From assembly GCF_002261265.1 (NCBI RefSeq), contig NZ_NEVK01000008.1:62001-126000 (forward strand): a stretch of DNA of 64,000 bases, in the 5' to 3' direction. The stretch comes from Bordetella genomosp. 7. GTDB lineage: Bacteria > Pseudomonadota > Gammaproteobacteria > Burkholderiales > Burkholderiaceae_B. Positions 9,160-23,811 of the stretch are shown in pieces. A model generated the notes under the pieces. It searched no databases, was not told where the DNA came from, and saw nothing but the letters and a program-made list of their open reading frames with translations. Positions within the stretch are counted from its first letter, which is position 1, and each line of letters starts with the position of its first letter. A program made the position numbers and the translations under genes.

Positions 9160-9205
9160 TACCTGCGCCGAAGGTATAGGCGGGCTTGCCCGACCGCTGC
9201 CCGAT

Positions 9206-9214
9206 GTACGGAAC
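9206..9214 (+). promoter_or_regulatory. Shared GTACGGAAC motif, site A
   Basis: GTACGGAAC lies 89 bases upstream of the crotonase-fold gene start and is oriented towards it. Identical 9-mers precede three other transcription units in this catabolic region (14362, 16294, 23653). The motif is an imperfect palindrome, GTwCsGwAC. I infer an operator or activator site for one of the IclR proteins encoded here. Confidence 0.55.
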
Positions 9215-9303
9215 ACTGTAGCGTTGTTCTTGCCGGGATACAGCCTGCAACGCACACTCGGCAGGCCCCGATCCAGCACCAACTCTATGGAGCCACATTG
9301 AAC

Positions 9304-10116
9304 ATGCGCTACGACGACTTCCAATTCCTGGTATGCGAGCCGCAGGCCGACGGCGTTGTGCTCGTGACACTCAATCGGCCAGAAGCGATGAACGCCACCA
9401 ATGACCGCATGCATTGGGAACTGACCAAGATCTGGGGCATCCTCGATGAGGACCCTGGCGTCAAAGTGGTGGTAGTTACCGGCGCGGGGGATCGGGCGTT
9501 TTCGGCGGGCGGCGATCTTTCTATCGTAGAAGCCATGTCCAACAGCCACGACACCACCATGCGCGTCATGAAAGAGGCATCGGACATTGTCTACAACATG
9601 CTCGCCTGCAACAAACCGATTGTCTCGGCGATCAATGGCACGGCAGTGGGCGCCGGCCTTGCGGTGGCGCTGCTGGCCGATGTCAGCGTCATGGCTGAAG
9701 ACGCCAGGCTCACGGATGGACATGCGCGGCTGGGCGTGTCGGCGGGAGACCATGCCGCGATCATCTGGCCCATTCTCTGCGGCATGTCCAAGGCCAAGTA
9801 CTACTTGATGACCGCCGATTTTGTAGACGGCAAAGAGGCCGAGCGCATTGGCCTGGTTACATTCTGCGCGCCACGCGCCGACGTGCTGCCGAGGTCGCTT
9901 GCCATTGCCGCGAAGCTGGCACAAGGCAGCCAGACAGCTATACGCGCCACGAAAAAATCCCTGAACAACTGGATGCGTATCGCGGGGCCCGTATTCGATA
10001 ATTCACTTGCACAGGAAATGCTCTGTTTCCTGGGGCCTGACGTCAAGGAAGGGTTGGCCGCATTGCGCGAGAAGCGCGCGCCGAAGTTTCCATCCGCACA
10101 GCTTCCCGCCCACTGA
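9304..10116 (+). CDS. Crotonase-superfamily enzyme (enoyl-CoA hydratase/isomerase-like)
   Basis: This is a 270-residue crotonase-fold protein. [18 protein letters not shown] (about 56-73) is the first oxyanion-hole strand and [17 protein letters not shown] (111-127) the second. The two glutamates of classic hydratases are absent: the GGGCE glutamate aligns with A120 and the PE glutamate with H140. Instead H140 and D149 are spaced by nine residues, as in the His/Asp dyad I recall for 6-oxocamphor hydrolase. Simple hydration is therefore doubtful, and a hydrolytic or retro-Claisen C-C cleavage is possible. ATG 9304 or TTG 9298 could start translation from GGAG at 9289. It is convergent with the CoA-transferase gene and carries motif site A upstream, which links it to the IclR regulon. 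Confidence 0.82.
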
Positions 10117-10150
10117 CGCAAACACATCGCCCAAGGCGGCGGGCGGTTAC

Positions 10151-10167
10151 GCCGGCCCCCCGCCGGC
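10151..10167. terminator. Bidirectional hairpin between convergent genes
   Basis: A 6-bp perfect stem, GCCGGC-CCCCC-GCCGGC, lies in the 55-base gap between the convergent crotonase and CoA-transferase genes. A short T/A-rich stretch (CTTAAATTA) follows on the plus strand. It probably ends transcription from one or both sides. Confidence 0.45.
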
Positions 10168-10171
10168 GCCC

Positions 10172-11353
10172 TTAAATTACCCCCTGCTTTCTCAGCCGCG
10201 CGATACTGGCGGCATCGACGCCGATATCGGCCAGTATCGCGTCGGTATGCTCTCCGTTCAGCGGCGCGCGGCGCTCGATGGAGGGCGGTGTGCGCGATAA
10301 CGCCACCGGGGTATTGAAAACAGGCACTTTCCCGGGCGCGCCGGGGTAATCCATCCACCTGATGAGATTGGCGGCCTTGACTACATCGTCTTCCAATGCC
10401 TGCCGTGGCGAATTGATGCGGGCAGCGGGAATGCGCGCCTGCTCCAGCAGTGCCAGCGCTTCCTCCAGACTCTTGTCCAGGCACCATTGGCTCATGATGC
10501 CGCTCAGAAGTTCCCCGTGTTCGCCACGCAGTGCATCATCGGCGAACCGCTCATCCGCAAACAGCTCGGGGCGGCCTACGAGCCGAGTCCAACGCTTGAA
10601 CATGGCCTGCCCGATAACCTGGATAATGAACCAGCCGTCGCGTGCCTTGAATATGTCCGACGGGGCATAGCCCGATGCGCGGTTCAGCGTAGCCTGCCGG
10701 TTCACATGCAAAAGCGCTTCTTCAATCAGGGCGCCACTGGCCATGTTAAGGCCGGTGCACAGTAACGATGCACTGACCTCCTGTCCTGTACCGCTACGTT
10801 GGCGTTCATACAGGGCGAGCACCGCACCCAGCGCGCAGGCGAACGATGTCGCGAAATCCACGACGGGCACCATGGACTTCTGCGGCTGCTCGGGCGTACC
10901 CGCCAGGTAAACCGATCCGCTTAGCGCCTGTCCAACGCCATCGAAGCCCACCCTGTCCCGCACCGCCTGGGCATTGCCGAATGCACTGGAAGCAACGAGG
11001 ATGATCCGGGGATTGACGGTCTTGAGCGTCTCATAGTCCAGGCCCAGGCTCTTGAGCGTGCGCGGCGGCATATTGGCGACGACTACATCAGCGCGAATCA
11101 CCAGCTTGCGGACGATCTCGCGTCCCTGCTCGCTATCCAGATCGAGAGTCATCGACCGCTTGTTGCGGTTCAGCTGCAGAAACATGGCGCCCTCGCCGTC
11201 ATCGGTCACGGGCACGATGTAACGATCCTCCCCTCCTTCCACGCGCTCGACTCTGATGACATCGGCGCCGTAGTCAGCCAGCAGAGCGGCGCAGTACGGA
11301 CCCGCGATAAAGCGGCCGAAATCCAGGACTTTGATACCTTCGAGTACCTTCAT
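10172..11353 (-). CDS. Family III CoA-transferase (CaiB/BaiF type)
   Basis: This 393-residue enzyme should move CoA between carboxylic acids, for example from a pathway product to a fresh substrate. It begins MKVLEGIKVLDFGRFIAGPY and has the family signature NRNKRSMTLDLDSEQGREIVRKL with RADVVVANMPP, plus the later YERQRSGTGQEVSASL and RASGYAPSDIFKARDGWFII blocks. I chose the ATG at 11353 because GAGAAG precedes it by 6 bases and homology starts there. In-frame starts at 11374 and 11395 are possible. It is last in the unit ligase - IclR - CoA-transferase. Having both a ligase and a CoA-transferase implies ATP-dependent activation first and CoA recycling later, as in bai and cai operons. Confidence 0.88.
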   Translation of the reverse strand: MKVLEGIKVLDFGRFIAGPYCAALLADYGADVIRVERVEGGEDRYIVPVTDDGEGAMFLQLNRNKRSMTLDLDSEQGREIVRKLVIRADVVVANMPPRTLKSLGLDYETLKTVNPRIILVASSAFGNAQAVRDRVGFDGVGQALSGSVYLAGTPEQPQKSMVPVVDFATSFACALGAVLALYERQRSGTGQEVSASLLCTGLNMASGALIEEALLHVNRQATLNRASGYAPSDIFKARDGWFIIQVIGQAMFKRWTRLVGRPELFADERFADDALRGEHGELLSGIMSQWCLDKSLEEALALLEQARIPAARINSPRQALEDDVVKAANLIRWMDYPGAPGKVPVFNTPVALSRTPPSIERRAPLNGEHTDAILADIGVDAASIARLRKQGVI

Positions 11354-11402
11354 AAATTGCTTCTCGTTGTCCATGAGCCCATATGTACGGATCACCAGGT
11401 GC

Positions 11403-12254
11403 TCAGGGTTCTATGGCGTTGAATTCGCGTTGCAGAGCTTCTCCCATGGCGAGCAGGCGCGGACCCAGTTCTCTGGTTACGCGAGCCCGCGTCATGGCGC
11501 GGCTGGCGCCTACGCACGCCAGTACAAATGGCGAGTTTCCTTCCAGCAATACAGGGGTGGCCAGCGCGCCGAGTTCAGGTTCCCACTCGCCGATGGACAC
11601 GCAATACCCGGTTTCGGCGACCTGCGCCATGCCTTCCCATACGCGGCGCCGCAACCGGCTCCAGTCCCGCGGCATCCGACGTTGTACGTTCTCCAGCAAA
11701 TAGTTGCGCTCGAGCTCCGGCAATCCGGCGAGCAACGCCCAGCCCATCGGAGACTGCGCAATTCCTACGCGTATGCCGACATGCAGGGGTAGCGCCACCG
11801 GCGACTCCGGACTGCGACGGCATTCCAGCACGACCAGATCGAGCCGGTCGCGCAATGCCAGGCATACGTGCACCTTGTGCTGCCGCGCAAACGCTGCCAT
11901 GCGTTCGCCAGCCAGACCCTGGATGGCGGAGTGCGCCATTGCCGCATAGCCCAGTCCCAGCACCTTGGGCGACAGCCGGTACTTGCGTTCGTCGGCGTCA
12001 TGCAGCAGGTAGCCCAACTGCGCGAGCGATTGAGCCATGCGCGACACCGTGGACAAGGGCAGCCCCGTCCGTTGCGACAACTGACTGTTGCCCAGCCAAC
12101 GCTCCTGGGGAGAAAACGCCGAGATAATGAGCAGCGCGCGCACAACCGGGGTAACGACGGCGACCCCGGGCTCGCGCTGCAGCGAGGCAGACATGCCGAG
12201 CAATGCGGGCTGTGCGGCACTGGTTCTGGTGCCGACCTGGGCGCTGTATGCCAT
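11403..12254 (-). CDS. IclR-family transcriptional regulator (1)
   Basis: This is a 283-residue IclR protein. The winged helix-turn-helix lies near residues 30-95 (RALLIISAFSPQERWLGNSQLSQRTGL, then PLSTVSRMAQSLAQLGYLL). The effector-binding domain follows, with VCLALRDRLDLVVLECRRS and MGWALLAGLPELERNYLLENVQ. I set the start at ATG 12254, 13 bases after the ligase stop. ATG 12194 is an alternative. It is clearly paralogous to the IclR protein at 14607-15428: both have the 'ASFSP..W' opening, the GYxxxD wing and a matching ligand domain. Being sandwiched between the ligase and the CoA-transferase, it is a probable local regulator acting on the GTACGGAAC sites. Confidence 0.85.
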   Translation of the reverse strand: MAYSAQVGTRTSAAQPALLGMSASLQREPGVAVVTPVVRALLIISAFSPQERWLGNSQLSQRTGLPLSTVSRMAQSLAQLGYLLHDADERKYRLSPKVLGLGYAAMAHSAIQGLAGERMAAFARQHKVHVCLALRDRLDLVVLECRRSPESPVALPLHVGIRVGIAQSPMGWALLAGLPELERNYLLENVQRRMPRDWSRLRRRVWEGMAQVAETGYCVSIGEWEPELGALATPVLLEGNSPFVLACVGASRAMTRARVTRELGPRLLAMGEALQREFNAIEP

Positions 12255-12267
12255 TTGACGCGCCGCG

Positions 12268-14214
12268 TCAGCGTGCCGCCGCACGCACTTCATCAAGCGC
12301 GGCCGGGTTATCCAATGAAGAAAGATCGCCGGGCGGCTGACCGCAATAAACACTGCGGATGGCTCGCCGCATGATCTTCGAACTGCGGGTCTTGGGCAGC
12401 TGGCTTAGCACGTGTACCCTGCCTGGGCGGAAAGGTCGGCCCAGACGTTTCTCTACATGTCTTGCCACCAAGGCCTCGAGCTCGCTCTCGGCTACGTTCG
12501 CATTGGGACGGGGCACCACGAATACAACAAGTTTCTGGCCCTTGACCTCGTCCGCGACGCCAATGGCGGCGGCTTCGGACACGTCGTGGATCTCCAGGAC
12601 CACCTCTTCTACTTCGGCCGGACCCAGTCGCTTACCGGCGACCTTCAGGGTATCGTCCGAACGTCCCATCATAAAGAAGCACCCGTCCGGCGTGCGCACG
12701 GCCAGGTCTCCATGCACCCATACGCCCGGGATCGTTCGCCAATAGGTTTCCAGGTACCGGGCATCGTCGCGCCAGAAAGACTGCGTCATGCCCACGAAGG
12801 GCGCACGAACCGCCAGCTCGCCAACTTGTCCCGTCAGACTGTTTCCCTGGTAATCGACGACATCCACCGCCACACCGGGCGAAATAGTGTTGAAGCCGCT
12901 CGGTGGTATGGGCCGGATGGGCACGCTGGACAGCAAAGCTCCGGAAACCTCTGTTCCGCCGGTGTAATTCACCAATGGAGCGGTGCCGTCGCCGAAGCGC
13001 TCCTGGAACCAGATGAAATGCTCCGGCGCAATGCCTTCCCCGGCCGTGATGAGCACACGCACGGTGGAGCGATCCCCCTGCAGGGCCACGGCTTCGTTGC
13101 CTGCCATGCCGCGGATGAGCGTCGGCGCGGATCCAAAATGCGTAACTTTGTGGCGCTCTATCAGGCGGGACATGCGCGACCAGTCGGGATAATCCGGCGC
13201 ACCGTCATAACAAACAAGCGTCGCCCCGCGCAGCAGGGCGCTGGCCAGTACGAGTGTTCCGGCGATCCACCCCATGTCGGCTGGCCAGCAGTACACATCA
13301 CCTGGCTTGACATCAAAATGGACCAGCGAGTCATGAGCGATTTTGATGGGAAAGCTGCCGTGTGTGTGTACGACGCCTTTCGGCTTGCCTGTCGTGCCGG
13401 AGGTGTAGATCACCATAAACGGCGTGTCGGGCGTTACCGACAATGCGTCCTGCCCTGGCCCGTGCGCACCGCAAGCAACTTCTTGCCAGTCCAGATCGCG
13501 AGCGTCCTGCGCGCGCTCACCCTCTGCATACTTCCAGACTACGTGTTCCAGCAAGGGTAGCTGCCGCCATGCATCGCGTAGTGCGCCCTGGACATCCACG
13601 CGCTTGGTACGGCGCTGGAACCCGGTGGACGCAATTACCATGCGGGCCTCGGCGGCAGACAGGCGGGCCACGATGGCATCGACGCCAAACCCGCTGAAAA
13701 GCGGCACCACGACGGCTCCGAGATGCACAATGGCCATCAGCGAAATCGTGGCGTCCACCCCATTTTCCATCAATAGGCCTATGCGATCGCCGGGCCCAAT
13801 GCCGCTGTTGGACAGGCCGGCGGCGAATTTCCGCACTCGCTGCTCCAACTCCCGGAAAGTCAGCGAACTGCTGCTTCCGTCTTCTCGTTCGCCGACCACG
13901 GCTATTCGTTCGGCCGTGTCCGCACGCCTGGCCCAGCTATAAATGCTGTTGACCCAGTTCAGTCTACCGCCAGGAAACCAACTGGGGAATTCGGGCCCGC
14001 GCGACAGATCTACGTAATCCTTGGGCGGTTCATCCCAGACGATGCAGCACTCCTGCATCACGGTTTCCCAGTAGTGACGGGGCTCTTTCACTGACGCACG
14101 CATGAGCTCCTCGTAAGAGGTGACTCGCAGCGCTCCCATCAGGTGCGCAATTCCGGAGTTCTGCAATTCGCGCTGGCCGGGCTGCCAGACATGTGAAGGT
14201 TCTTGCTTGCTCAT
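12268..14214 (-). CDS. AMP-forming acyl-CoA synthetase (acetyl/acetoacetyl-CoA synthetase-like)
   Basis: This 648-residue ligase should activate a carboxylic acid to its CoA thioester via an acyl-adenylate. Motif A3 is VIYTSGTTGKPKGVVHTHG, YTGGTEVSG is A5-like, and GDLAVRTPDGCFFMMGRSDD with TLKVAGKRLGPAEVEEVV spans A7-A9. The catalytic lysine is in LPKTRSSKIMRRAIR near the C-terminus. The length and the N-terminal cap (HYWETVMQECCIVWDEPPKDYVD) match Acs/AacS-type synthetases rather than short benzoate or fatty-acid ligases. It is first in the minus-strand unit that continues with IclR and the CoA-transferase. A GTACGGAAC site lies 148 bases upstream. The substrate is unknown; the neighbouring reductases suggest an unsaturated or cyclic acid. 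Confidence 0.88.
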   Translation of the reverse strand: MSKQEPSHVWQPGQRELQNSGIAHLMGALRVTSYEELMRASVKEPRHYWETVMQECCIVWDEPPKDYVDLSRGPEFPSWFPGGRLNWVNSIYSWARRADTAERIAVVGEREDGSSSSLTFRELEQRVRKFAAGLSNSGIGPGDRIGLLMENGVDATISLMAIVHLGAVVVPLFSGFGVDAIVARLSAAEARMVIASTGFQRRTKRVDVQGALRDAWRQLPLLEHVVWKYAEGERAQDARDLDWQEVACGAHGPGQDALSVTPDTPFMVIYTSGTTGKPKGVVHTHGSFPIKIAHDSLVHFDVKPGDVYCWPADMGWIAGTLVLASALLRGATLVCYDGAPDYPDWSRMSRLIERHKVTHFGSAPTLIRGMAGNEAVALQGDRSTVRVLITAGEGIAPEHFIWFQERFGDGTAPLVNYTGGTEVSGALLSSVPIRPIPPSGFNTISPGVAVDVVDYQGNSLTGQVGELAVRAPFVGMTQSFWRDDARYLETYWRTIPGVWVHGDLAVRTPDGCFFMMGRSDDTLKVAGKRLGPAEVEEVVLEIHDVSEAAAIGVADEVKGQKLVVFVVPRPNANVAESELEALVARHVEKRLGRPFRPGRVHVLSQLPKTRSSKIMRRAIRSVYCGQPPGDLSSLDNPAALDEVRAAAR

Positions 14215-14606
14215 TGTTCAGATCTTCTCGGGTGCATGGAAGGGCTTGAACGTGGTTCGAGACCCCATGGCGGTATGACGGGCCGCCACGGGAAAGCGTG
14301 GGGCGCGCTGTTGCGTAAGATGAAATCCGCCTCGAAAGAGGTCAAACGTTATCCATAGCGCGTTCCGTACCTCGGCACGCCCCCGCCGGTCCCAAGATGA
14401 CGATTTGCCGTAGAAACCCACAGTTTTCCTATTCCAACACTCGGAACATTGCTCACAATCTGCTTGCCCCCTTGCGTCCGGGCTGCGACATAATTGGCGC
14501 TGGGCCTGCCAAGGCCCCGTGTATCCTCCGCCGACGCTAGCGCATGGCCAGGGATAACCCTAGGATTGCGTCACCGATTAACGTACCAAGTGGTTAAGTG
14601 TGTTTT
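14215..14606. other. Divergent regulatory region, ligase / IclR pair
   Basis: This 392-base gap separates the minus-strand ligase from the plus-strand IclR pair. I see no credible gene in it; the short frame on the minus strand at 14218-14421 has no family features. It holds the GTACGGAAC site at 14362-14370 (on the minus strand) and an inverted repeat TTCC-n7-GGAA near 14433-14447 whose right arm reads CGGAAC, resembling part of the same motif. Promoters for both directions must lie here. Confidence 0.5.
14362..14370 (-). promoter_or_regulatory. Shared GTACGGAAC motif, site B
   Basis: On the minus strand this reads GTACGGAACGCG. It lies 148 bases ahead of the ligase start and is oriented towards it. 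Three bases 3' of the 9-mer (GCG) are also shared with site C at 16294. It is probably an IclR-type operator of the same regulon. Confidence 0.55.
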
Positions 14607-15428
14607 ATGAACGACATGCTTCCCCAATCCCCCGAGCAGCAGCACGGCCTGCGAGTCTGCCGTCCCACTGTTGCCCCGTTCGCTCGCGCGTTGTCGATTC
14701 TTGCCTCGTTTTCCCCCGGGGATCAATGGCTCACCAACCGCGACTTCGCCATCCGCAGCGGCCTGCCGGCGTCCACCGTCACCCGGATGACTAACACGCT
14801 GGTTACGCTGGGATACCTGCATTGCGATCCGGGCACTCGCAGGTTTTGCCTGAAGTCGTCCGTGCTGGCGCTGGGCTACGGGGCCGCAGTGGACGCCGAG
14901 ATTCATCACCCCACTAACGAGCTGATGCGGGTTTTTGCCGAGCAGTACCAGGTCAATGTGCAACTAAGCTGCCGCGACCGACTGGATCTGGTCGTTACCG
15001 ACAGCTGCCTGACGAATGCCCTGCCTGCGATGCTGCAAACCGGCATAGGAACCCGGCTTGGCGTGGCATCATCGGCGCCGGGCTGGGCCCTGTTGGCCAG
15101 CCTGCCCGAAGCCGAGCGCGATTTCCTGTTGCGCAGCGCTCGTCAGCAGCCCCCGGATGAAGTCAAGCACGGACGCCACGCGCTGCATAAGTATGCGGGC
15201 GAAGCGATTCTGCGGGTTCGCGAAAACGGATTCTGCGTCGCGTTGGGGGAGTCGGGCCGTCCGATGACGACGGTAGCCGCTCCCGTCCGCCGGCCGGGCC
15301 TGGCGCCGCTCGCGGTCAGCTGCATGGGTCCCGCAACCCGTGTCGACAGAAACCGTAGCGCACACGAACTCGGGCCGGCGCTCGTGCGCATGGCGGAAAA
15401 GATCCAGCGCGTATGGACGACGCCATGA
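14607..15428 (+). CDS. IclR-family transcriptional regulator (2)
   Basis: This is a 273-residue IclR protein. The DNA-binding domain near residues 20-90 reads ARALSILASFSPGDQWLTNRDF followed by SGLPASTVTRMTNTLVTLGYL. The ligand domain includes VQLSCRDRLDLVVTDSC and GWALLASLPEAERDFLL. It is a paralogue of the regulator at 11403-12254 and differs in the wing and effector loop. I set the start at ATG 14607 (MNDMLPQS); the GTG at 14598 is possible. Its stop overlaps the ATG of the next IclR gene (ATGA at 15425-15428), so the two are translationally coupled. It is divergent from the ligase operon across a 392-base regulatory region. Confidence 0.85.
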   Translation: MNDMLPQSPEQQHGLRVCRPTVAPFARALSILASFSPGDQWLTNRDFAIRSGLPASTVTRMTNTLVTLGYLHCDPGTRRFCLKSSVLALGYGAAVDAEIHHPTNELMRVFAEQYQVNVQLSCRDRLDLVVTDSCLTNALPAMLQTGIGTRLGVASSAPGWALLASLPEAERDFLLRSARQQPPDEVKHGRHALHKYAGEAILRVRENGFCVALGESGRPMTTVAAPVRRPGLAPLAVSCMGPATRVDRNRSAHELGPALVRMAEKIQRVWTTP

Positions 15429-16234
15429 ACGCCCAGCCCATGCATGGCGAAGCGCAGGATTCCGAGAGCGCGGCGCTGATGACGGTAGAGCGGGGCCTGA
15501 AGGTGCTGCGCGCGTTCCGATCCGACCGCACGCCATTGAGCAATGCCGAGTTGGTGCGTCGTACCGGTCTGCCCAAAGCCACCATATCCCGCCTGACCTC
15601 CACCCTGATCCAGGTAGGTTTTCTGCGACAGGTTCCGGGCCGCCGCGAGTTCGAGATCGCCACTGGCTCGCTCAGTATCGGACACGCCTACCTGGACACC
15701 AACGAAATGCTCCAGGCTGCGCAGCCGCTTATGCAAGATCTGGCCGACCAGCTGAATGTGTCCGTTGCCCTGGGCATTCAAGATGGCCTGGATCTGCTTT
15801 ACATTGCCTATCGAGTCAGCCGCAAGGTCGCGACGCTGCGCCTCGGCGTCGGTTCAGTGTTGCCCATGGGCACCACCTCAATCGGACGCGCCTACTTATG
15901 GGCCCTGCCCCAGGCGCAAAGAGAGCCGCTGATCGCGGAATACAAACAACAGGCCGGGCCCGACGGCGATGCCCTGGAACAATCGATACGCGCTTCGTTT
16001 GACGATCTGGAAGCCACGGGAACCTGCGCTGTGCTGGGTGGATTCCAGCGCAGCACTTACGGAGTCGCCACCCCCATCTGGGCGGGGCGCAACCGTATAC
16101 CTATCGCCATGAGCTGCGGCAAAGCAGACGTCAATCTCGATCTGGAAGCCGAGCGGCAGCGCATCGCGCCTGCGCTCAAGCAGACAGCCGCGGAGCTCCA
16201 GGCAGCGCTGCGCGACTTCGAAGGCCCCCTCTGA
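15425..16234 (+). CDS. IclR-family transcriptional regulator (3)
   Basis: This is a 269-residue IclR protein of a different subgroup from the two paralogues nearby. MTVERGLKVLRAF and LVRRTGLPKATISRLTSTLIQVGFL form the winged helix near residues 20-65. The effector domain has LNVSVALGIQDGLDLLYIAYR and MGTTSIGRAYLWALPQAQRE. I chose the ATG at 15425 for its 4-base ATGA overlap with the preceding IclR gene; the open frame starts 4 codons earlier. Co-expression of two different IclR regulators suggests hetero-regulation or sensing of two pathway intermediates. The downstream SDR gene has its own motif site C, so transcription may restart there. Confidence 0.85.
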   Translation: MNAQPMHGEAQDSESAALMTVERGLKVLRAFRSDRTPLSNAELVRRTGLPKATISRLTSTLIQVGFLRQVPGRREFEIATGSLSIGHAYLDTNEMLQAAQPLMQDLADQLNVSVALGIQDGLDLLYIAYRVSRKVATLRLGVGSVLPMGTTSIGRAYLWALPQAQREPLIAEYKQQAGPDGDALEQSIRASFDDLEATGTCAVLGGFQRSTYGVATPIWAGRNRIPIAMSCGKADVNLDLEAERQRIAPALKQTAAELQAALRDFEGPL

Positions 16235-16293
16235 TCCGTATTTGTAGGCCTGACCCAAGGGCCCGATCAGCATACCGGGCCTGCGCCGCCGTT

Positions 16294-16302
16294 GTACGGA
16301 AC
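16294..16302 (+). promoter_or_regulatory. Shared GTACGGAAC motif, site C
   Basis: GTACGGAACGCG lies 66 bases upstream of the SDR start at 16369, oriented towards it. Just before it, GGCCCG and CGGGCC near 16259-16280 can form a hairpin that may end the IclR transcript. The same 9-mer precedes three other units of the cluster. Confidence 0.55.
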
Positions 16303-16368
16303 GCGCCATACGGCGACATTGATACACGCAGGCTGCCCCGATGTAATTCCCACTAACAGGAGACAAAT

Positions 16369-17151
16369 ATGGATCTGAAACTATCGGGTCAGCGCGTGTT
16401 GGTAACCGGGGCCTCGCAAGGCATCGGCGCGGGTCTCGCCCACGCCTTCGCGGCCGAAGGCTGTCACCTGGCTCTGGTGGCCCGTTCGGCAGACAAGCTC
16501 CAGGCGCTGGCAGACGGCTTGATATCTGACTACGGCGTACAGGTTTCGTTGCTGCCGCTGGACATGACCCTGCCCGGAGCGATCGAGCGGGTGGCGGAAT
16601 TCGCGGGCGATGTGGACGTACTGGTAAACAACGCGGGCGCGATTCCGGGCGGCGACCTTTGGGATGTGGACGCGCAGGCCTGGCGCAAGGGCTGGGAACT
16701 GAAGGTCTTTGGCTATATCGACCTGGTCCGCGCCATCTATCCGCGCATGAAGACGCGAGGCAGAGGCGTCATTCTCAACAACATCGGCAATGGCGGCCAG
16801 AACCCCGACTTCAACTACATCGCAGGCTCGACAGGCAACGCCGCTCTGATGGCGTTTACCTGTGCCCTGGGCGGCCGAAGCCTGGAAGACGGTATTCGTG
16901 TCATCGGCGTGAATCCCGGGCCGGTGGCGACGGAACGCATTGCCAAAGTGCTAAAGAGTCATGCCGCCCGGCTGCTGGGCGACGAAAACCGATCCAGCGA
17001 ACTGCTGGCTGCCTATCCGCGTGGGCGCGCCGCTACGGTAGAAGAAGTGGCGGACGTGTTCGTCTATCTGGCCTCGCCGCGCTCTTCGTACACCAGCGGC
17101 ACCATTGTCACTATCGACGGCGGCATCTCATCTAAACGTTCGGTGGCATGA
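16369..17151 (+). CDS. Short-chain dehydrogenase/reductase family protein, atypical active site
   Basis: This is a 260-residue SDR. VLVTGASQGIGAGLAHAFAAEG (13-34) is the TGxxxGxG nucleotide motif, and VDVLVNNAGAIPGG follows. The usual catalytic Y-x3-K reads Y150-IAG-S154 here (NYIAGSTGNAALMAFT), so the lysine is serine. The usual catalytic serine strand reads ILNNIGNGG without the SS pair. Related SDRs with AGNAALMAFT exist, so this is probably a subgroup feature, but standard carbonyl reduction is uncertain. Sequence after the active site (GIRVIGVNPGPVATERI) is canonical. Its stop overlaps the start of the flavoenzyme gene by 4 bases, indicating coupled translation. It is preceded by motif site C. 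Confidence 0.87.
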   Translation: MDLKLSGQRVLVTGASQGIGAGLAHAFAAEGCHLALVARSADKLQALADGLISDYGVQVSLLPLDMTLPGAIERVAEFAGDVDVLVNNAGAIPGGDLWDVDAQAWRKGWELKVFGYIDLVRAIYPRMKTRGRGVILNNIGNGGQNPDFNYIAGSTGNAALMAFTCALGGRSLEDGIRVIGVNPGPVATERIAKVLKSHAARLLGDENRSSELLAAYPRGRAATVEEVADVFVYLASPRSSYTSGTIVTIDGGISSKRSVA

Positions 17152-19118
17152 CTGCGTATAGAAATCTCTTCTCGCCGCTGTTGATCGGAGGCGTCGAGAT
17201 TTCGAATCGCATCGTGCGGACGGCGCATGCGACGCGGCTGGCGCAAGGCTATGTCAACGACGACCTGATCGCCTATCACCTCGAACGAGCCAAGGGCGGA
17301 GTCGGACTTTCCATTCTGGAAAGCACGTCGGTTCATCCGTCCTCTACGTTCTCGCTCACTGCAGCGGACGACGGCGCGATCGCACCTATGCGCCGCCTGG
17401 TGGACGCCATTGCACCCACCGGCATGAAGCTCTTCACCCAACTGTGGCACGGAGGATATACCGACCCGGCGGCAGATGGAGGCCTGCCCTGGGCGGTAAG
17501 CGCGCTGCCCGGTCGCTACTCGGTGGCGCCGCCGGTTCCGATGACCACCGGCCAGATCGGCGAGCTGGTCGAGGCTTACGGAAAGGCAGCGGCCCGCATG
17601 CAGGCAGCCGGCCTGAATGGCGTCGAGGTTCTGGCGGGCGCGGGTTATCTGTTTTCACAGTTCTTCTCGCCGGTGCTCAACCAGCGAACAGACGTCTACG
17701 GTGGCCGCCTGGAAAACCGCATGCGCGCGTTGCTGGAAACTCTGCGCGCCATACGGAGCGCAACCTCGGCCGAGTTCGCCGTCGGTATCCGCGTCAGCGC
17801 AAGTACGGACCCACGCATTCTGTCGACCGAAGATGTCAACGCGATTCTGCTGAGGGTGCAAGACGAAGGCTTGGTCGACTTCGTCGATATCACCCACGGC
17901 GACTATTACTTCCATGTGGAACGCTACGCCGGAATGGATCGGCCGGTTGGCTACCAGCTTCCCGCAAGCGACCGCATAAGCCACGGTGTCACTGTGCCGC
18001 GCATCATTGTGGGCCGTTACGCCACGCTGGACGATGCGGAACAGGCCATCAGGGAAAGCCACGCCGAAATGATAGGCATGGTGCGCGGCATGATCGCCGA
18101 CCCGATGCTGATCGAGAAAGCGCGTGCCGGACGCGGCACCGATGTGCGCCCCTGCATCAGCTGCAACCAGGGATGCATCGGCGGTGTATTCACCGGGCGC
18201 ATGCGCTGCGCCGTGAACCCGGTCGTGGGCGACGAACGGCATCTGGCGGAAAGCCGCCTTGTCGCCGCGGCGGCGCCTCGCAAGGTCGTGGTGGTTGGTG
18301 GTGGGGTGGCAGGCATGGAGGCAGCGCGCGTTGCCCGGCTGCTGGGCCATCACGTCACATTGCTGGAAGCCGGCGCCACGCTGGGAGGCCTGCTCAACTA
18401 TGCCAAGCAGCTGCCCAAGCTGCACCTGATAGGCGACATCGCCCTTTGGCTGGAGAACGAAATCTACCGGCTGGGCGTAGAAGTGCGCATGGCAACCTAT
18501 GCCGAGGCAGAAGACGTCTCGGCCGAGCAACCTGACGTGGTCATTGTTGCAACCGGGTCCATGCCGACGGACGCCACCGCTTTTCGCCAGACGGCCGACC
18601 CGGCCGCCAGCCTGGCCATTGCGCCTGATGCAAACGTGCTGACGTCATGCGAGCTATGCATGAAAACGCAAGGCCAGTATGGAACGACCGCTTTGGTCTT
18701 TGACGATATCGGCCATTATGAGGCCATTGGCTGCTGCGAAGCCTTGATCGAGTCTGGCGCCGCGGTAACCTACGTCACCCGCCATTCGATGTTCGCGCCC
18801 GCAGTAGAAGGAACAGGACGCACACAGGCCGCGCTGCAACGGTTTTACAAAGCAGGCGACTTCCGCATCTTGACGCAGTTCGCTCTCGTTTCCATTGACC
18901 AGGGATCGGCGCGAGTTCGGCCGCTATATGGCGAGCACGCTACTGTCGTAAGTGCCGACACCGTGGTATTGGTTGGGTACCGGCAATCATTGAACGATGT
19001 CTGGAGTACGCTGCAAGGTCGGGTTCCACAGCTGCACATCGTCGGCGATGCCCTTTCAACGCGTGACGTGCAGGCGGCGATTCGCGAAGGGCATCTGGCG
19101 GCGCGGGCCATCACGTAA
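17148..19118 (+). CDS. FMN/FAD/4Fe-4S ene-reductase, 2,4-dienoyl-CoA reductase / BaiCD type
   Basis: This 656-residue oxidoreductase should reduce a conjugated C=C bond, probably in a CoA ester or enone, with NAD(P)H. Residues about 1-330 form the old-yellow-enzyme TIM barrel (NLFSPLLIGGVEISNRIV; FSQFFSPVLNQRTDVYGG with RLENRMR). An iron-sulfur cluster motif follows near 336-355 (CISCNQGCIGG, then RMRCAVNP). From about 380 there is a dinucleotide-binding domain (KVVVVGGGVAGMEAARVARL). This layout matches FadH, trimethylamine dehydrogenase-like and BaiCD enzymes. It overlaps the SDR stop by 4 bases and ends the plus-strand unit, convergent with the Liv transporter genes. Near a CoA-ligase and CoA-transferase it suggests degradation of an unsaturated alicyclic, aromatic-derived or terpenoid acid. 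Confidence 0.9.
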   Translation: MTAYRNLFSPLLIGGVEISNRIVRTAHATRLAQGYVNDDLIAYHLERAKGGVGLSILESTSVHPSSTFSLTAADDGAIAPMRRLVDAIAPTGMKLFTQLWHGGYTDPAADGGLPWAVSALPGRYSVAPPVPMTTGQIGELVEAYGKAAARMQAAGLNGVEVLAGAGYLFSQFFSPVLNQRTDVYGGRLENRMRALLETLRAIRSATSAEFAVGIRVSASTDPRILSTEDVNAILLRVQDEGLVDFVDITHGDYYFHVERYAGMDRPVGYQLPASDRISHGVTVPRIIVGRYATLDDAEQAIRESHAEMIGMVRGMIADPMLIEKARAGRGTDVRPCISCNQGCIGGVFTGRMRCAVNPVVGDERHLAESRLVAAAAPRKVVVVGGGVAGMEAARVARLLGHHVTLLEAGATLGGLLNYAKQLPKLHLIGDIALWLENEIYRLGVEVRMATYAEAEDVSAEQPDVVIVATGSMPTDATAFRQTADPAASLAIAPDANVLTSCELCMKTQGQYGTTALVFDDIGHYEAIGCCEALIESGAAVTYVTRHSMFAPAVEGTGRTQAALQRFYKAGDFRILTQFALVSIDQGSARVRPLYGEHATVVSADTVVLVGYRQSLNDVWSTLQGRVPQLHIVGDALSTRDVQAAIREGHLAARAIT

Positions 19119-19123
19119 TCTGC

Positions 19124-19141
19124 GGCGGCCGCGGTGCCGCC
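19124..19141. terminator. Hairpin between convergent flavoenzyme and LivF genes
   Basis: GGCGGC-CGCGGT-GCCGCC gives a 6-bp stem in the 25-base gap between the two convergent genes. It probably serves as a bidirectional stop. No T-tract follows. Confidence 0.4.
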
Positions 19142-19143
19142 GA

Positions 19144-19863
19144 TCAAAGACCCAAGTATGCCTTTTTGATGTCCGGGTCGTTAAGAAACACGGACGCCGG
19201 ACCATGCTTGACGACCTTGCCCGATTCCAGCACATAGCTGTAGTCGCTGACTCGTAACGCGACTTCCGCGTTCTGCTCTACCAGCAGCACTGTCACGCCC
19301 TGCCGATTGATATCGCGCACCACCTTGCTGATGACGTTGACGAAGGCAGGCGCCAGCCCGATAGTAGGTTCGTCCAGCAACAGCATACTTGGCGAGCTCA
19401 TAAGGGCGCGCGCCACTGCCACCATTTGCTGCTGCCCTCCGGAAAGCGAATTTGCCGGACTGGACAGCTTTGCCTCCAAATCTGGAAAGTAATGCAGGCA
19501 CGTCGCGAGCAGATCGGATCGTTTCTGCACACTATCGATCAGGTACGCTCCCATCTCCAGGTTTTCGCGCACCGTCATGCTGCCGAACAGGCGCCTGCCT
19601 TCCGGCACCAGCGCCACGCCATGACCAAGGATAATGTTGGGCTCGCAATTGACGAACGACTTGCCTCCATAGGCGATGTCACCTTTGGAAGTTTTCACCA
19701 GGCCGGTAATTGCTTTGATCAAAGTGGATTTTCCGGCGCCATTGGCCCCGATCAGGCTCACGATGGCCCCGCCTTTCACCTCCAGGCTCACATCCATGAT
19801 GGCGGGTACGGTTCCGTAACTGACTGACAGGTTCCGCACCATCAGAGAATTTTCAGAGGTCAT
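19144..19863 (-). CDS. livF: Branched-chain-type ABC transporter ATPase (LivF-like)
   Basis: This 239-residue ATPase energises the importer encoded by the four genes upstream. The Walker A is GANGAGKST, the signature is LSGGQQQMVAVARAL, and Walker B is MLLLDEPTIGLAP. The C-terminus (YVLESGKVVKHGPASVFLNDPDIKKAYLGL) is typical of LivF. The ATG at 19863 fits the family length, and its first 11 bases overlap the end of the LivG gene. Substrate specificity lies in the binding protein at 22389-23558. In this setting it probably imports the acid degraded by the surrounding CoA-dependent pathway rather than leucine. Confidence 0.9.
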   Translation of the reverse strand: MTSENSLMVRNLSVSYGTVPAIMDVSLEVKGGAIVSLIGANGAGKSTLIKAITGLVKTSKGDIAYGGKSFVNCEPNIILGHGVALVPEGRRLFGSMTVRENLEMGAYLIDSVQKRSDLLATCLHYFPDLEAKLSSPANSLSGGQQQMVAVARALMSSPSMLLLDEPTIGLAPAFVNVISKVVRDINRQGVTVLLVEQNAEVALRVSDYSYVLESGKVVKHGPASVFLNDPDIKKAYLGL

Positions 19864-20602
19864 GCGCTTCCCCCAGATATGCCCGAAGCACGGTTTCACT
19901 CGCCTTTACCTCATCCGGCGTACCGCTGCAGATTATCTCTCCGTGATGCAGTACGTAAATTCGATCGCAGATGTTCATCACGGCGCGCATATTGTGTTCA
20001 ACCAGCAAGATCGACATATCGTGCTCTGCCCTGAGCCGCCTGAATACGCCCAGTGTCTCGGCCACTTCTGTCTGGTTCAGGCCGGTCAGGGGCTCATCCA
20101 GGCAAAGCAGCGAAGGGCCGGCCGCGAACGCCATGGCCATGCTGACCAGCCGCTGTAACCCATGCGGCAGGTTCCTGGCGATCTCGCGTTCATACCCCGC
20201 CAGGCCGAACAGTTCGATGGCCTGCGAGATCACCCGATCTTGATCGCCGGACGACACCCGACCTACGCGCTTGCCTCCCAGGCATCCGATCAGCACGTTA
20301 TCGCGCACCGACATCGAAGGCAGATAGCTGCCATGCTGGAACGTGCGCACCAAGCCTTGCTTGCTGATGCGCTCGGGTTTGGCGTTAGTCATTCTTGCGC
20401 CGTTGATCTCAAGGCGTCCCGATGTCGGCCTCAGGAACCCGGACAGCAGGTTGAACGTGGTGCTCTTTCCGGCACCGTTGGGGCCGATGAGACCTACGAT
20501 TTCACCTTGCCTGATCTCGATATCGACCTTGGAAACTGCCAGCAGCCCCTTGAACTGCTTGGATAGGTTCTTGCCTGAAAGTAGCGTTGATCCCGTCTGC
20601 AT
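19853..20602 (-). CDS. livG: Branched-chain-type ABC transporter ATPase (LivG-like)
   Basis: This is a 249-residue ATPase and the second nucleotide-binding subunit of the heteromeric importer. The Walker A is GPNGAGKSTTFNLLSG, with LCLDEPLTGLNQTEV at Walker B and the LivG-type segment TNAKPERISKQGLVRTFQH. The signature region reads NLPHGLQRLVSMAMA, with LPHGLQR replacing the usual LSYGQQR, a modest departure from the ABC consensus. It overlaps LivF by 11 bases and follows LivM with a 9-base gap, so it sits within one operon. Confidence 0.9.
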   Translation of the reverse strand: MQTGSTLLSGKNLSKQFKGLLAVSKVDIEIRQGEIVGLIGPNGAGKSTTFNLLSGFLRPTSGRLEINGARMTNAKPERISKQGLVRTFQHGSYLPSMSVRDNVLIGCLGGKRVGRVSSGDQDRVISQAIELFGLAGYEREIARNLPHGLQRLVSMAMAFAAGPSLLCLDEPLTGLNQTEVAETLGVFRRLRAEHDMSILLVEHNMRAVMNICDRIYVLHHGEIICSGTPDEVKASETVLRAYLGEAHDL

Positions 20603-20611
20603 GGTGTCCTC

Positions 20612-21508
20612 TCAGCGGCTCTTGAACAGGCCCATCAGGCCCTTGGGCAGGAACAACACCGAGACAATGATGGCCAGGCCATAGAGTATGTGCTCATTGC
20701 CGCCCAACGTCTGCGCGTAGCTGGCGATGCCCACGAGCAATACGGCCCCGATGACTGGCCCCAGCGGACTGTCTTCGCCACCCACTTTCAGGTATGCCAA
20801 TGCAAATGTAGAGAGCATGAAGCCAAAGTCCAACGGGCTGATTACATTGTTGGCATAGGCATGTACAGACCCAGCCAGTCCAGCCACCGCCGAAGCCACC
20901 GCGAAGCACAGGACCTTGGTCATGAACACCGGAATACCAACGCTGCGCACCACGTTTTCGTTATCGCGGATGGCGATGAACACCTTGCCCAGGTTGGAAC
21001 GCTCGACGAACCACATCGCCGTGATCAACCCGAAACTTAGTATTGTCACAAAGTACTGGTAATAGGCGTCGAGCCATTCTGGCGGAAATATGCCTACCAG
21101 GCCGGAGTTGCCGCCCAGTACGTCGGTGCGGCTGTACAAAATGCGCATCGCCTCTGTAAACGCAAAGCCGATAAGCAGGAAGTACGGCCCCTTTACCCTG
21201 AGCGTAATGCATCCGAACACCACACTGACCAGCAGTGCCAGGATCGTGCTGGCAGCCAGCGTCAGCAAGAATGGCCATTCCAGATAGTTCACGATATAGC
21301 CGGTGCAATATGCACCGATACCGAAGAACGCAGCAGTGGCGAAGTTCAGTTCGCCTATCAGCAACACAAACCGCAGGCTGGCCGCCATGACGGCGGCGAT
21401 GCTCATCCATACGACCAGGTTTCCGGTGTAGCCGCCGCCAAACGCGATGCAGCCCACCAGTACCGCGGCAATGAGCAAGATAAGTGGAAGGTCGGTTCTT
21501 TTAGTCAT
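20612..21508 (-). CDS. livM: Branched-chain-type ABC transporter permease (LivM-like)
   Basis: This 298-residue inner-membrane permease has about 8-9 helices. The LivM motif is NFATAAFFGIGAYCTGYI near the first third, and LGKVFIAIRDNENVVRSVG with PVFMTKVLCFAVASAVAGLAG is the conserved cytoplasmic loop contacting the ATPases. It starts at ATG 21508, overlapping the LivH gene by 8 bases. It lacks the long N-terminal extension of E. coli LivM, as is usual for amide, urea and aromatic-acid variants of the family. Confidence 0.9.
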   Translation of the reverse strand: MTKRTDLPLILLIAAVLVGCIAFGGGYTGNLVVWMSIAAVMAASLRFVLLIGELNFATAAFFGIGAYCTGYIVNYLEWPFLLTLAASTILALLVSVVFGCITLRVKGPYFLLIGFAFTEAMRILYSRTDVLGGNSGLVGIFPPEWLDAYYQYFVTILSFGLITAMWFVERSNLGKVFIAIRDNENVVRSVGIPVFMTKVLCFAVASAVAGLAGSVHAYANNVISPLDFGFMLSTFALAYLKVGGEDSPLGPVIGAVLLVGIASYAQTLGGNEHILYGLAIIVSVLFLPKGLMGLFKSR

Positions 21509-22382
21509 TGCCGAAGAAGCCCTTGGGTTTGATCAGCAGCACCAGCATCACGATCACAAAAATAGTCAGGTTTGCGGCCGACGGATCAAAGTAAAAGCCG
21601 ACAAAGGTCTCCAGGATGGCGATCAGCAAACTGCCGAGTATGGCGCCCACGATGCTGCCCATGCCCCCCACCACCACGGCTATGAAACCCTTGACCAAGT
21701 ATGAATCGCCCAATGTGGGAGTCACCGCCGCAACGGGTGCGATCAGCATGCCCGCAATCGCCGCCACGCCGGTCGCGATCAGAAATCCATGCAGTGCTAT
21801 TTTTCGGTAGGCAATGCCCTGCAGCATCGCTGCTTCGTGGTCGATCGCCACGGCCCGCAGCGCCTTGCCGAAACGCGTGCTCTTGAGCAGGGCGATGATG
21901 ACCCCCGTGAGCACCGCAGCAAAAACAAACAGGATCAACCGTTGCTTTGAAACGGAAATGCCTGCGACATCGAGATTGCCTTCCACGAGAGATGGAACCG
22001 GCCGGACTGCGCCGCCGAAGACCTCGAGCATGAGGCCCTCAAAAAGCAGCACCAGCCCCGCCGACAGGATGAAGGAGCCGATCATGTCGCGCTCCAACCG
22101 CTTGAATCCGAACTGATATAGCACCAGTCCGAACAGCAGGCACGCGGCCAGCCCGCCCATACCGGCCAGCGCATACACCAAGTAGGGGTTGCCGATGCGC
22201 GGAGCCAGCCAGGACAGCCCCAGCGACAGCATCAAGGCTGCAAACGTAAAGAACTGACCGTGCGCAAAGTTCACGACCTTCAGTACGCCGAAGATGATCG
22301 TCAGCCCTAGTGAGAAAAGGATGTACACCGAGCTGATCTGCAGCGCCGTGAACAGCAGCTGGAGGTTGTCCTGCATGTGCAT
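21501..22382 (-). CDS. livH: Branched-chain-type ABC transporter permease (LivH-like)
   Basis: This 293-residue permease pairs with LivM to form the membrane channel. SLGLTIIFGVLKVVNFAHGQFFTF near residues 25-48 is the LivH signature. RAVAIDHEAAMLQGI is the coupling loop and VVVGGMGSIVGAILGSLLIA the late conserved helix. Its start lies 6 bases after the binding-protein stop, so it is tightly coupled to it. It is the second gene of the five-gene operon. Confidence 0.9.
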   Translation of the reverse strand: MHMQDNLQLLFTALQISSVYILFSLGLTIIFGVLKVVNFAHGQFFTFAALMLSLGLSWLAPRIGNPYLVYALAGMGGLAACLLFGLVLYQFGFKRLERDMIGSFILSAGLVLLFEGLMLEVFGGAVRPVPSLVEGNLDVAGISVSKQRLILFVFAAVLTGVIIALLKSTRFGKALRAVAIDHEAAMLQGIAYRKIALHGFLIATGVAAIAGMLIAPVAAVTPTLGDSYLVKGFIAVVVGGMGSIVGAILGSLLIAILETFVGFYFDPSAANLTIFVIVMLVLLIKPKGFFGND

Positions 22383-22388
22383 GGCTCC

Positions 22389-23558
22389 TTATTTCTGCAC
22401 GCGCCCAACTTCCTTCAGCGTCGTCCCGGCGATTTGGGTAATGATGACGGGCAGTTGCATCTGCTGGTCGCTACCGTATACATCCTTTCCGCCGAAACCG
22501 ACCTCGCCGAAGAACGACTGGAACTTGACCTCCGGCATCACTTTGGCCACCTGCTCCGGGTCAACGCTCTGCGCCTTTTCCATTGCGGCTTTCAGTGCCC
22601 ATACGGCGTCGTACATTCCGATCTGCACCGAGTTGATGTCTTCCCCCGTTACTTTCCGCACCCCGTCGTTCAGCTCTTTCTGGTGCGGATTCATGCTGGA
22701 AACCGCAACCGCGGCTCCAAGGTAGGTGCCATCAACGGCGTTCTTGCCAGTGGCCAGCAGGCCGTCGGCCCCCGTGCCGACTTCCACGACCTTGATGCCG
22801 TTCCATCCCAAAGCGTTCAACTCTCGGAACACCAGCCCTGCGTCGGCGGGCGGAGTGGATGCCAGATCAACCACATCGGGTTTGAGCGAGTTCAGCTTCG
22901 CCGCAATCGGCTGGAATTCGCTGGTGCCGCGTTCATACCAGTCGCTGACCAGTACCTTCACGCCATGGCGCTCCCATGCGGCGCGCGCCACCTTCTCGGT
23001 TTCCTGGCCTGTGGCGTCGTTGGGATTGAGCAATGCCACCGTCTTGATCTCTGGATGCAGCTTCTTCACATGAGCGATCATCGGGTCGGATATCTCGTTG
23101 ACCGAATTCATCTGCGAGAAGGTCAATGGGAACTTGGGCCCCTTGATCGAGTTTCCCCAGGCGGCAGTGAACAGCAGCACACCCCTGCGTTCAGTCAGTG
23201 ACTGCAGCGCCCGCACGGGCGCCACGCCGATACTGCCTGCGACATACTTCACGCCATCGCGTGCGACCAACGCCTGCGCGACCTTGGCTCCTTCCGCCGC
23301 GTTGTACTTGTTGTCGTAGCCTACACATTCGAAGTTATAGGTGGCGTCCTTTACCTTGACTCCGCCGGCAGCCTTGATTTCTTCGGCCGCCTTGGTGCAC
23401 AGCCACTCAGACCCTTTCCCCCAATTGGCGCCCGCGCCAGACAATGGGATGGACATGCCCAGCTTGATGGTTTCCGCGTGGGCAAAAGCGGACGCGGCGA
23501 ACAAAGCAATCGCGAAGCCGGCCTTGATCGACATCGTCTTTTTAATCGGTGCTTTCAT
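22389..23558 (-). CDS. Liv-type ABC transporter substrate-binding protein
   Basis: This is a 389-residue periplasmic type I binding protein. The Sec signal peptide is MKAPIKKTMSIKAGFAIALF and onward to AHAETIKLG. The mature part has IKLGMSIPLSGAGANWGKGSEW, the typical opening, then AALNPNDATGQE-like mid-domain strands and a C-terminal VIITQIAGTTLKEVG. GGAGGA precedes the ATG at 23558. The upstream frame to 23750 is not credible as coding. It leads the importer operon and has motif site D 94 bases upstream. An aromatic or alicyclic acid ligand is inferred from context. The ligand cannot be read from sequence. Confidence 0.88.
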   Translation of the reverse strand: MKAPIKKTMSIKAGFAIALFAASAFAHAETIKLGMSIPLSGAGANWGKGSEWLCTKAAEEIKAAGGVKVKDATYNFECVGYDNKYNAAEGAKVAQALVARDGVKYVAGSIGVAPVRALQSLTERRGVLLFTAAWGNSIKGPKFPLTFSQMNSVNEISDPMIAHVKKLHPEIKTVALLNPNDATGQETEKVARAAWERHGVKVLVSDWYERGTSEFQPIAAKLNSLKPDVVDLASTPPADAGLVFRELNALGWNGIKVVEVGTGADGLLATGKNAVDGTYLGAAVAVSSMNPHQKELNDGVRKVTGEDINSVQIGMYDAVWALKAAMEKAQSVDPEQVAKVMPEVKFQSFFGEVGFGGKDVYGSDQQMQLPVIITQIAGTTLKEVGRVQK

Positions 23559-23652
23559 AGTCTCCTCCGGTAGGGTTCGTATGGCGCACGCGCCAGACCC
23601 GTACGAATTAGAGTCTTCGCCACAGAAGCGGGTCAAATTAGATTCTGCGCTC

Positions 23653-23661
23653 GTTCCGTAC
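23653..23661 (-). promoter_or_regulatory. Shared GTACGGAAC motif, site D
   Basis: On the minus strand GTACGGAAC lies 94 bases ahead of the binding-protein start. It ties the transporter to the ligase, SDR/flavoenzyme and crotonase units. The surrounding gap (23559-23811) holds no other clear element apart from two similar AATTAGA-containing stretches near 23606 and 23637. Confidence 0.55.
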
Positions 23662-23811
23662 CCTGGAATCGTTGCCGGCGCGGCTGATATGCCCAATTCG
23701 CGACGATCACCCTGCCCGGAGCGACGTGGATGTCCCGCGACAGACGACATCCTTGGACGGCGCGCAACGCGCGCCGAATAAGCCAGTAGAAGCCCGATTC
23801 CAGTCGACGAA

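Follow-up and report, generated by a model that had tools for sequence, protein, structure and literature searches.

Why should one and the same 9-mer, GTACGGAAC, lie in front of four transcription units of a single gene cluster, each time oriented towards the gene? The question is raised by a stretch of 64,000 nucleotides from Bordetella genomosp. 7 (RefSeq assembly GCF_002261265.1, contig NZ_NEVK01000008.1, positions 62,001 to 126,000 of the forward strand; hereafter, the window), for which a preliminary description had proposed a local regulon of CoA-dependent chemistry and an operator for a subgroup of IclR regulators. The 9-mer is part of a larger element of fixed geometry, which is conserved and co-occurs with a pair of IclR-type proteins, designated X and Y in the following. 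Judging from the sequence, this element is very probably the operator, together with the dependent promoter, through which the conserved pair X/Y activates a regulon for the CoA-dependent catabolism of carboxylates.

The composite element and its geometry

The four copies of GTACGGAAC are found at 9206 (+), 14362 (-), 16294 (+) and 23653 (-), with the coordinates and orientations originally given. The window had been thought to hold no other copy; a fifth is present at 2545-2553 (+), inside a TetR-type coding sequence and without a flanking half-site or -35 box, and is taken as background. Dinucleotide shuffles of the window lead to an expectation of 0.15 copies, and five were reached in none of 100 shuffles. 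The whole genome (8 contigs, 4.13 Mb) contains 23 copies, five of them within about 21 kb of the window, and the word itself is not common, since the same 9-mer read backwards occurs 64 times.

When the flanks of all 23 genomic copies are inspected, 7 are found to combine CC(A/G), starting 5 bp before the 9-mer core, with TTG 15 or 16 bp after it: the four sites that had attracted attention in the window (A-D, in order of position) and three on contig C8, at 753845 (+), 759861 (-) and 759948 (+), the last two being divergent and pointing apart. Thus, the 9-mer can be ruled out as the complete site. It forms the half nearer the promoter of an imperfect dyad of 17 bp, TTCCRnnGTACGGAAC, which is followed, after 15-16 bp, by a TTGAC-like -35 box; both the upstream half-site and the fixed distance to TTGAC had previously gone unnoticed. 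A genome search for CCNNNGTACGGAAC-N16-TTGAC returns four exact matches (sites B and D and two on C8) and one with a single mismatch (site C, with TTGAT), the next having two mismatches, and that for CCNNNGTACGGAAC-N15-TTG returns two exact matches, namely site A and the remaining C8 site. In these forms (N16 exact or with one mismatch, N15 exact) the composite element is restricted, in its own genome, to two clusters.

In the window, operator A (9198-9214, +; core 9206-9214) is followed after 15 bp by TTGCCG (9230-9235), and operators B (14362-14378, -; core 14362-14370), C (16286-16302, +; core 16294-16302) and D (23653-23669, -; core 23653-23661) are followed after 16 bp by TTGACC (14340-14345), TTGATA (16319-16324) and TTGACC (23631-23636), respectively; A, B and D match the composite pattern with no mismatches. 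About 25 bp lie between the centre of the dyad and the -35 box, which places this centre at about -60, and a weak -10 (roughly NANNAT) is found about 18 bp past the -35; at site C only a short leader separates the promoter from the start codon of the short-chain dehydrogenase/reductase (SDR) gene. Sites B and C share, in addition, four bases (GCGC) on the 3' side, rather than the three first reported, which are absent as a conserved feature from the other sites.

The profile built from 33 sites, TTCCRAWGTACGGAACA, has C or T at position 4 in 32 of them, C at position 5 and A or G at position 6 in all 33, and a near-invariant right half, ACGGAAC. The sites were collected with at most one core mismatch, so that the right half is partly selected, and those with one-mismatch cores were also selected on CC and TTG; free of such selection are the composite-pattern genome scans, the counts of core-TTGAC spacing, the order-wide scan and the second of the two motif discovery runs (see below). 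The operator is asymmetric, with a near-invariant promoter-proximal half, a loose distal half and a fixed orientation with respect to TTGAC. Indeed, across 19 stretches covering such clusters (373,706 bases), a TTGAC is found 5-30 bp past the exact core in 30 cases, 25 at N16, 5 at N15 and none elsewhere, i.e. the class I-type arrangement, in which the operator precedes the -35 box by a constant distance, is found in every such core-TTGAC pair. The same stretches contain 34 occurrences of core-N15/16-TTG, whereas 500 permuted cores give 0.1 on average and at most 5.

In two cases a TTGAC follows the reversed core (at N13 and N14); each time this is the back side of an operator within a divergent region. 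These cores (L066, 14605, -; L073, 1522, -; L numbers designate loci and G numbers genomes) belong to the divergent MaoC/acyl-CoA dehydrogenase region, and the TTGAC lying 13-14 bp behind them is about one helical turn nearer the dyad centre than usual. A second core for the acyl-CoA dehydrogenase was not found in L066, so that a single operator may there serve both directions.

The building of a motif from orthologous promoters, advocated in the preliminary description, also recovers the operator. Unseeded expectation-maximization (EM) motif discovery on both strands of 57 upstream regions, from which shared divergent DNA had been removed, yields TGTTCCGTAC.TtGgaA, i.e. the reverse complement of the operator, at about 27 sites, with a log-likelihood gain of 239 versus 54-62 in ten shuffles that preserved base composition only and had the same number of starts as the real set. 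This run replaces a first one on 68 regions (gain of 351 versus 53-59 in three shuffles), in which 11 region pairs shared the same divergent DNA and the real set was given more starts. Of the 68 regions, 24 carry the exact forward core, 6 the reversed core only and 38 neither, the latter including some weak homologues or one-mismatch cores.

Two other assignments of parts of the element were considered and dropped. GGAAC resembles the -35 boxes of extracytoplasmic function (ECF) sigma factors; the constant downstream element, TTGAC, is a sigma-70-like -35, and no ECF-type -10 is seen by eye. Nor does TTGAC appear to belong to a second IclR site: such a site is commonly found 18-22 bp away, according to the survey of Suvorova and Gelfand (PMC8222616), and TTGAC fits, by eye, no half-site at that distance.

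A pair of IclR regulators and its co-occurrence with the element

The three IclR genes first noticed in the window cluster are indeed present, at 11403-12353 (-), 14598-15428 (+) and 15413-16234 (+), and Pfam HTH_IclR and IclR_C score above the gathering threshold in their three products as well as in both proteins of the C8 cluster (locus L018). Each cluster contains an overlapping tandem of two such genes. The window protein encoded at 15413 and that encoded at 12269 of L018 (53% identical) define class Y, whereas those at 14598 (X1, the upstream gene of the tandem, the end of which is overlapped by Y) and at 13057 of L018 (44% identical) define class X; the protein at 11403 (X2), encoded within the presumed ligase operon, is an additional class X copy, 61% identical to L018 13057. 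In a midpoint-rooted tree of 41 proteins X stands apart from Y, with matching subgroups on both sides. X lies directly upstream of Y in the tandem-bearing operator loci, and the two are separated by about 4 and 7 kb in G002 and Cupriavidus sp. P-10, respectively, which also bear the operator. At least one X and at least one Y are present in 17 of the 17 operator-bearing loci fetched around Y, including that of B. pseudomultivorans, in which Y is in pieces. In this plasmid (L099, 14998-15775) Y is annotated as two pieces, transposases are found nearby, and cores persist before the SDR and old yellow enzyme (OYE) genes and elsewhere.

With a limit of E <= 1e-60, Y is detected in 8 of 268 genomes of the family. 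The exact composite element gives 12 matches in 6 of the 268, all among the 8 with Y and belonging to six genera (hypergeometric probability about 6e-11, a guide only given the relatedness of the genomes), and the reversed pattern used as a control gives 7 matches in 7 genomes, one of which has Y. G002, one of the two Y-bearing genomes without an exact composite, carries one-mismatch forms before crotonase, CoA-transferase and SDR/thiolase units. X (E <= 1e-50) is found in 9 of the 268, namely the 8 with Y and G215, where a protein 39% identical to Y, missed at 1e-60, adjoins X, and where two exact cores have TTGAC at N16 but TC in place of CC. Y is therefore present in at least 9 of the 268 genomes, and the counts hinge on the E-value limits; at most 9 IclR candidates per genome were scored for Y in the family, 6 in the order sample and 8 for X in the family. 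In a sample of 399 genomes across the order, Y is found in G000 and G421 only, and a looser pattern (YC for CC) gives 6 matches in 3 genomes, G000, G421 and G395, the single match in the latter being inside a 342-aa open reading frame (ORF) predicted by a simple gene picker. The backward control gives 10 matches in 10 genomes, G000 and G421 not being among them.

The element is also kept before orthologous operons. The divergent MaoC/acyl-CoA dehydrogenase region carries it in G000, Pandoraea terrigena, G081, G189, G200 and Burkholderia arboris; the promoter of the Liv binding protein in G000, P. terrigena and G102, cores being present also in G073; that of the AcetylCoA_hydro-type CoA-transferase in G000, G002, G081, G200, G226 and Paraburkholderia hospita (with one core mismatch in G002, G081 and G200); that of the crotonase in G000 and G002; and that of the ligase in G000 and G421. 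It is not found before every cluster gene in every genome. Of the two sites of P. terrigena (L050), one has CC and the other TC, and cores with the TTG link lie within 15 kb of Y in plasmids of P. hospita, B. arboris, Cupriavidus pinatubonensis, Cupriavidus sp. P-10 and B. pseudomultivorans, i.e. in 5 of the 5 betaproteobacterial Y loci among the plasmid records, with CC, TC or TT in the left half.

Two more distant loci are of note. A plasmid of Sulfitobacter dubius (L101, 12256, -) carries, in an acyl-CoA/TRAP cluster, an overlapping IclR pair, 34-38% identical to X/Y, with Y ahead of X. The exact core is missing from this locus, and a single near-relative, TTTCCAATATGCGGAAC, with the same outer bases and a changed centre, lies before the TAXI transporter genes. 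In G007 (L069, 9606, +) the start of a lone IclR gene, about 36-37% identical to X/Y, is overlapped by ATTCCGTATGGCGGAAC, a possible autoregulatory site of this related IclR.

Random scatter of the copies and lack of conservation in orthologous promoters had been named at the outset as fatal to the proposal of a regulon; neither holds, the composite being confined to two clusters and conserved before orthologous operons. That the 9-mer recurs by chance, or as an ordinary repeat devoid of a regulatory role, is extremely improbable: the genome does hold 16 further copies, but the shuffles, the reversed-pattern controls, the 500 permuted cores, the fixed spacing and the conservation across genera all speak against this explanation. 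The 15 background copies outside the window lie inside mechanical ORFs of at least 120 aa, as do the three operator sites of C8, so that this feature does not discriminate. The local regulon originally proposed is, thus, supported by clustering and conservation, but is larger than the four units initially considered.

Proposed mode of action of the pair

A member of the X/Y pair is the likely owner of the operator because the dyad fits the consensus of a known group of IclR operators (group 1, see below) and co-occurs with the pair across genomes. In this respect the idea of an operator for an IclR subgroup has stood, its size being 17 bp, with a fixed promoter geometry, instead of 9 bp. The AraC-type regulator encoded at 23812, just upstream of the Liv operon, or another local regulator might also be envisaged; this is very unlikely, as no AraC match is displayed in the loci compared (E limits of 1e-10 and 1e-15), where the operator and X/Y persist, and as the sequence fits an IclR dyad. 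On these grounds AraC was rejected as the owner of the site.

Binding by X/Y, activation in preference to repression, the effector and the substrate are all inferred from sequence. In the proposed mechanism X/Y would recognise the dyad TTCCRnnGTACGGAAC, with its centre some 25 bp before the -35 box (about -60), the trigger being the imported acid or its CoA ester. The acid would be taken up by the Liv ABC importer, activated to the CoA thioester by the ligase and the CoA-transferases, and oxidized stepwise by the acyl-CoA dehydrogenase with its electron-transferring flavoprotein (ETF), the MaoC hydratase, an SDR and the thiolase, with the crotonase, the other SDR and the OYE in addition.

Activation is suggested by the fixed position of the site upstream of the -35 box, by the poor -10 and by the NCBIfam model that scores highest with each of the five X/Y proteins scanned, namely that of PcaR/PcaU/PobR (TIGR02431), albeit with scores of 126, 89, 99, 92 and 105 bits, far below the cut-off of 284.75. 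PcaR/PcaU/PobR regulators are largely activators. The same operator and regulators could serve repression, the IclR proteins hindering RNA polymerase until the substrate appears. This is rather unlikely: repressors are found in the IclR family (PMC8222616) and the -35 boxes are near consensus, but all seven promoters of the genome itself have the site 15 or 16 bp ahead of the -35 box, a spacer of about 18 bp leads from there to a weak -10, and the closest NCBIfam model, although below its cut-off, is that of the activator group just mentioned.

Several observations weigh against an X/Y-activated regulon. Activator-dependent promoters often lack a good -35 box; here the -35 boxes are good and only the -10 is weak, and position alone is compatible with repression too. 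Among the 44 exact cores of the cluster stretches, 10 have no TTG at 15 or 16 bp. G073, which has Y without an exact composite, carries two exact cores before the Liv operon without the TTG link, and the link is missing at one of the three sites of G421. Operator-like sites with the TTG link are also found on contigs without the pair, namely contig C6 of G002 (L052, 9966, +) and contig C7 of G081 (L082, 1522, -), the latter before a CoA-transferase III gene; these may point to control in trans. Finally, the exact core is absent from the two alpha-proteobacterial loci compared, of three matches.

With regard to the division of labour between X and Y, it is tentatively proposed, at somewhat less than an even chance, that these ancient paralogues, usually kept as an adjacent and co-inherited pair, bind the asymmetric operator as a hetero-oligomer. 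Y would then occupy the invariant proximal half (TACGGAAC) and X the looser distal half, the complex being thereby oriented towards RNA polymerase. This assignment is in keeping with the recognition helices, conserved in Y and variable in X, and with a loose half that varies among lineages. The variability of the helix, as the entropy summed over 14 columns in 16 pairs, is 6.8 bits in Y versus 13.2 in X, with similar whole-protein variability (1.38 and 1.46 bits per column, respectively), and position 4 of the loose half is C in 19 of 21 family-plus-Pandoraea sites versus 4 of 10 Burkholderia/Cupriavidus sites (Fisher p 0.006, sites of the same genome being non-independent). All 16 Y proteins scored have a Lys just past the turn of the recognition helix, where X is variable; aligned by eye, this Lys corresponds to Arg47 of TtgV, i.e. 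position 28 in PMC8222616, which predicts a Lys-G contact for that position, mainly in another subgroup.

That a homodimer of Y alone binds the operator, X being accessory or acting elsewhere, is also a real possibility, somewhat short of even. The far less variable recognition helix of Y and the near-invariant (partly selected) half GTACGGAAC agree with it, but X accompanies Y in all the operator-bearing loci fetched, the distances among X proteins parallel those among Y proteins (r 0.835 over 17 pairs, with none of 2000 permutations as high, a result that co-inherited neighbours would also give), and an asymmetric operator of fixed orientation is unneeded by a homodimer. The mirror test left out the two extra IclR proteins of G102 (32% identity), the single IclR of Aory and G007, the second X copies (window 11403 and Pandoraea 6044) and B. 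pseudomultivorans; Sdub was included in it and excluded from the helix entropies. If X and Y do act jointly, they would represent a hetero-oligomeric member of a family described as binding as dimers or tetramers, heterodimers being unmentioned in the one survey searched (PMC8222616), and the orientation of the operator would be explained.

The proposed regulon and its relation to known IclR systems

The window units preceded by the element are the crotonase gene (9298-10116, +; PF00378, NCBIfam PRK07327 subfamily), behind site A; the presumed ligase operon, behind site B, with an acetyl/acetoacetyl-CoA-synthetase-like acyl-CoA ligase gene (12268-14214, -) first, X2 (11403-12353, -) next and a CaiB/BaiF-type (family III) CoA-transferase gene (10172-11395, -) last; the SDR gene (16369-17151, +; PRK06125 subfamily) with that of an OYE/FadH-type flavoenzyme (17148-19118, +; best NCBIfam models TIGR03997 and BaiCD, both below cut-off), behind site C; and the Liv-type ABC importer operon (19144-23558, -; two ATPases, two permeases and a binding protein), behind site D. 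The distances from core to start, first given as 66-148 bases, are 83 (crotonase, from TTG 9298), 147 (ligase, 14214), 66 (SDR, 16369) and 94 (Liv binding protein, ATG 23558). For the latter, ATG 23558, which is preceded by GGAGGAG, is the likely start rather than the mechanical ORF start at 23750, which falls upstream of site D.

The cluster on C8 comprises the gene of an AcetylCoA_hydro-type CoA-transferase, a MaoC hydratase-SDR-thiolase unit followed by the two IclR genes, and an acyl-CoA dehydrogenase-EtfB-EtfA unit; the IclR pair may be under the operator of the MaoC unit, because it follows on the same strand. Cytochrome bd oxidase genes (L018, 8407-10891) are found directly upstream of the operator-preceded CoA-transferase gene. 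Taken together, the genes of the two clusters cover uptake, activation and beta-oxidation, along with additional redox and crotonase steps. The NCBIfam names of the cluster enzymes, being generic or below cut-off, pinpoint no substrate. Two curiosities of related loci may be added: in G002 a 141-aa ORF (L051, 9128-9553, -) matches both SDR (88%) and MaoC hydratase (65%), each along a short stretch, as though what was left of the two genes had been joined by a deletion, and in the B. arboris plasmid an OXA beta-lactamase label (RGI via PLSDB; L097, 4683-5888), which looks misplaced, is attached to a stretch that tblastn reads as the cluster thiolase (81%).

The element provides a precise and transferable operator for an uncharacterised IclR subgroup, and allows for regulon prediction in pair-carrying genomes. 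It also ties the transport, ligase, CoA-transferase, dehydrogenase, hydratase, SDR, thiolase, crotonase and flavoenzyme genes of the two clusters to one likely pathway, the substrate of which can therefore be hunted as a unit. The regulator family is known; the operator and the regulon are new, and a joint action of X and Y on an asymmetric operator would be the novel part. The titles and abstract openings of the papers listed in the literature searches contain no description of this operator or of a paired IclR regulator; the passages seen of PMC13273656, PMC5029015 and PMC9582017 contain none of a joint IclR pair, and the main text of PMC8222616 has no occurrence of Burkholderia, Cupriavidus, Bordetella or Alcaligen-.

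How, then, does the operator compare with those of characterised IclR regulators? The group 1 consensus of Suvorova and Gelfand (PMC8222616) is GKTYCRYW3-4RYGRAMC, and its palindrome is recognizable in the 33-site profile and in the same motif as obtained by EM, free of core selection: the right half ACGGAAC corresponds exactly to RYGRAAC, the left TYCR is nearly always present, and the odd length and the 3-bp separation of the half-sites are the same. The outermost left G is not retained in the profile. Unlike group 1 operators, the present one combines a marked asymmetry, with a near-invariant proximal and a loose distal half, with a constant 15-16 bp link to TTGAC. As with GenR of Corynebacterium glutamicum, the box of which is ATTCC-N7(5)-GGAAT in a table of the same survey, a TTCC...GGAA dyad logic is found; GenR, however, is actinobacterial, controls the gentisate pathway and has a box without the GTACGGAAC half. 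With PcaR, PcaU and PobR the pair shares the association of IclR regulators with catabolic operons, but the published boxes of PcaU and PobR, TTTGTTCGATWATCGMACAMA and TTGTCCGATSATCGGACAR (PMC8222616), differ, and the target here looks to be the oxidation of CoA thioesters instead of protocatechuate.

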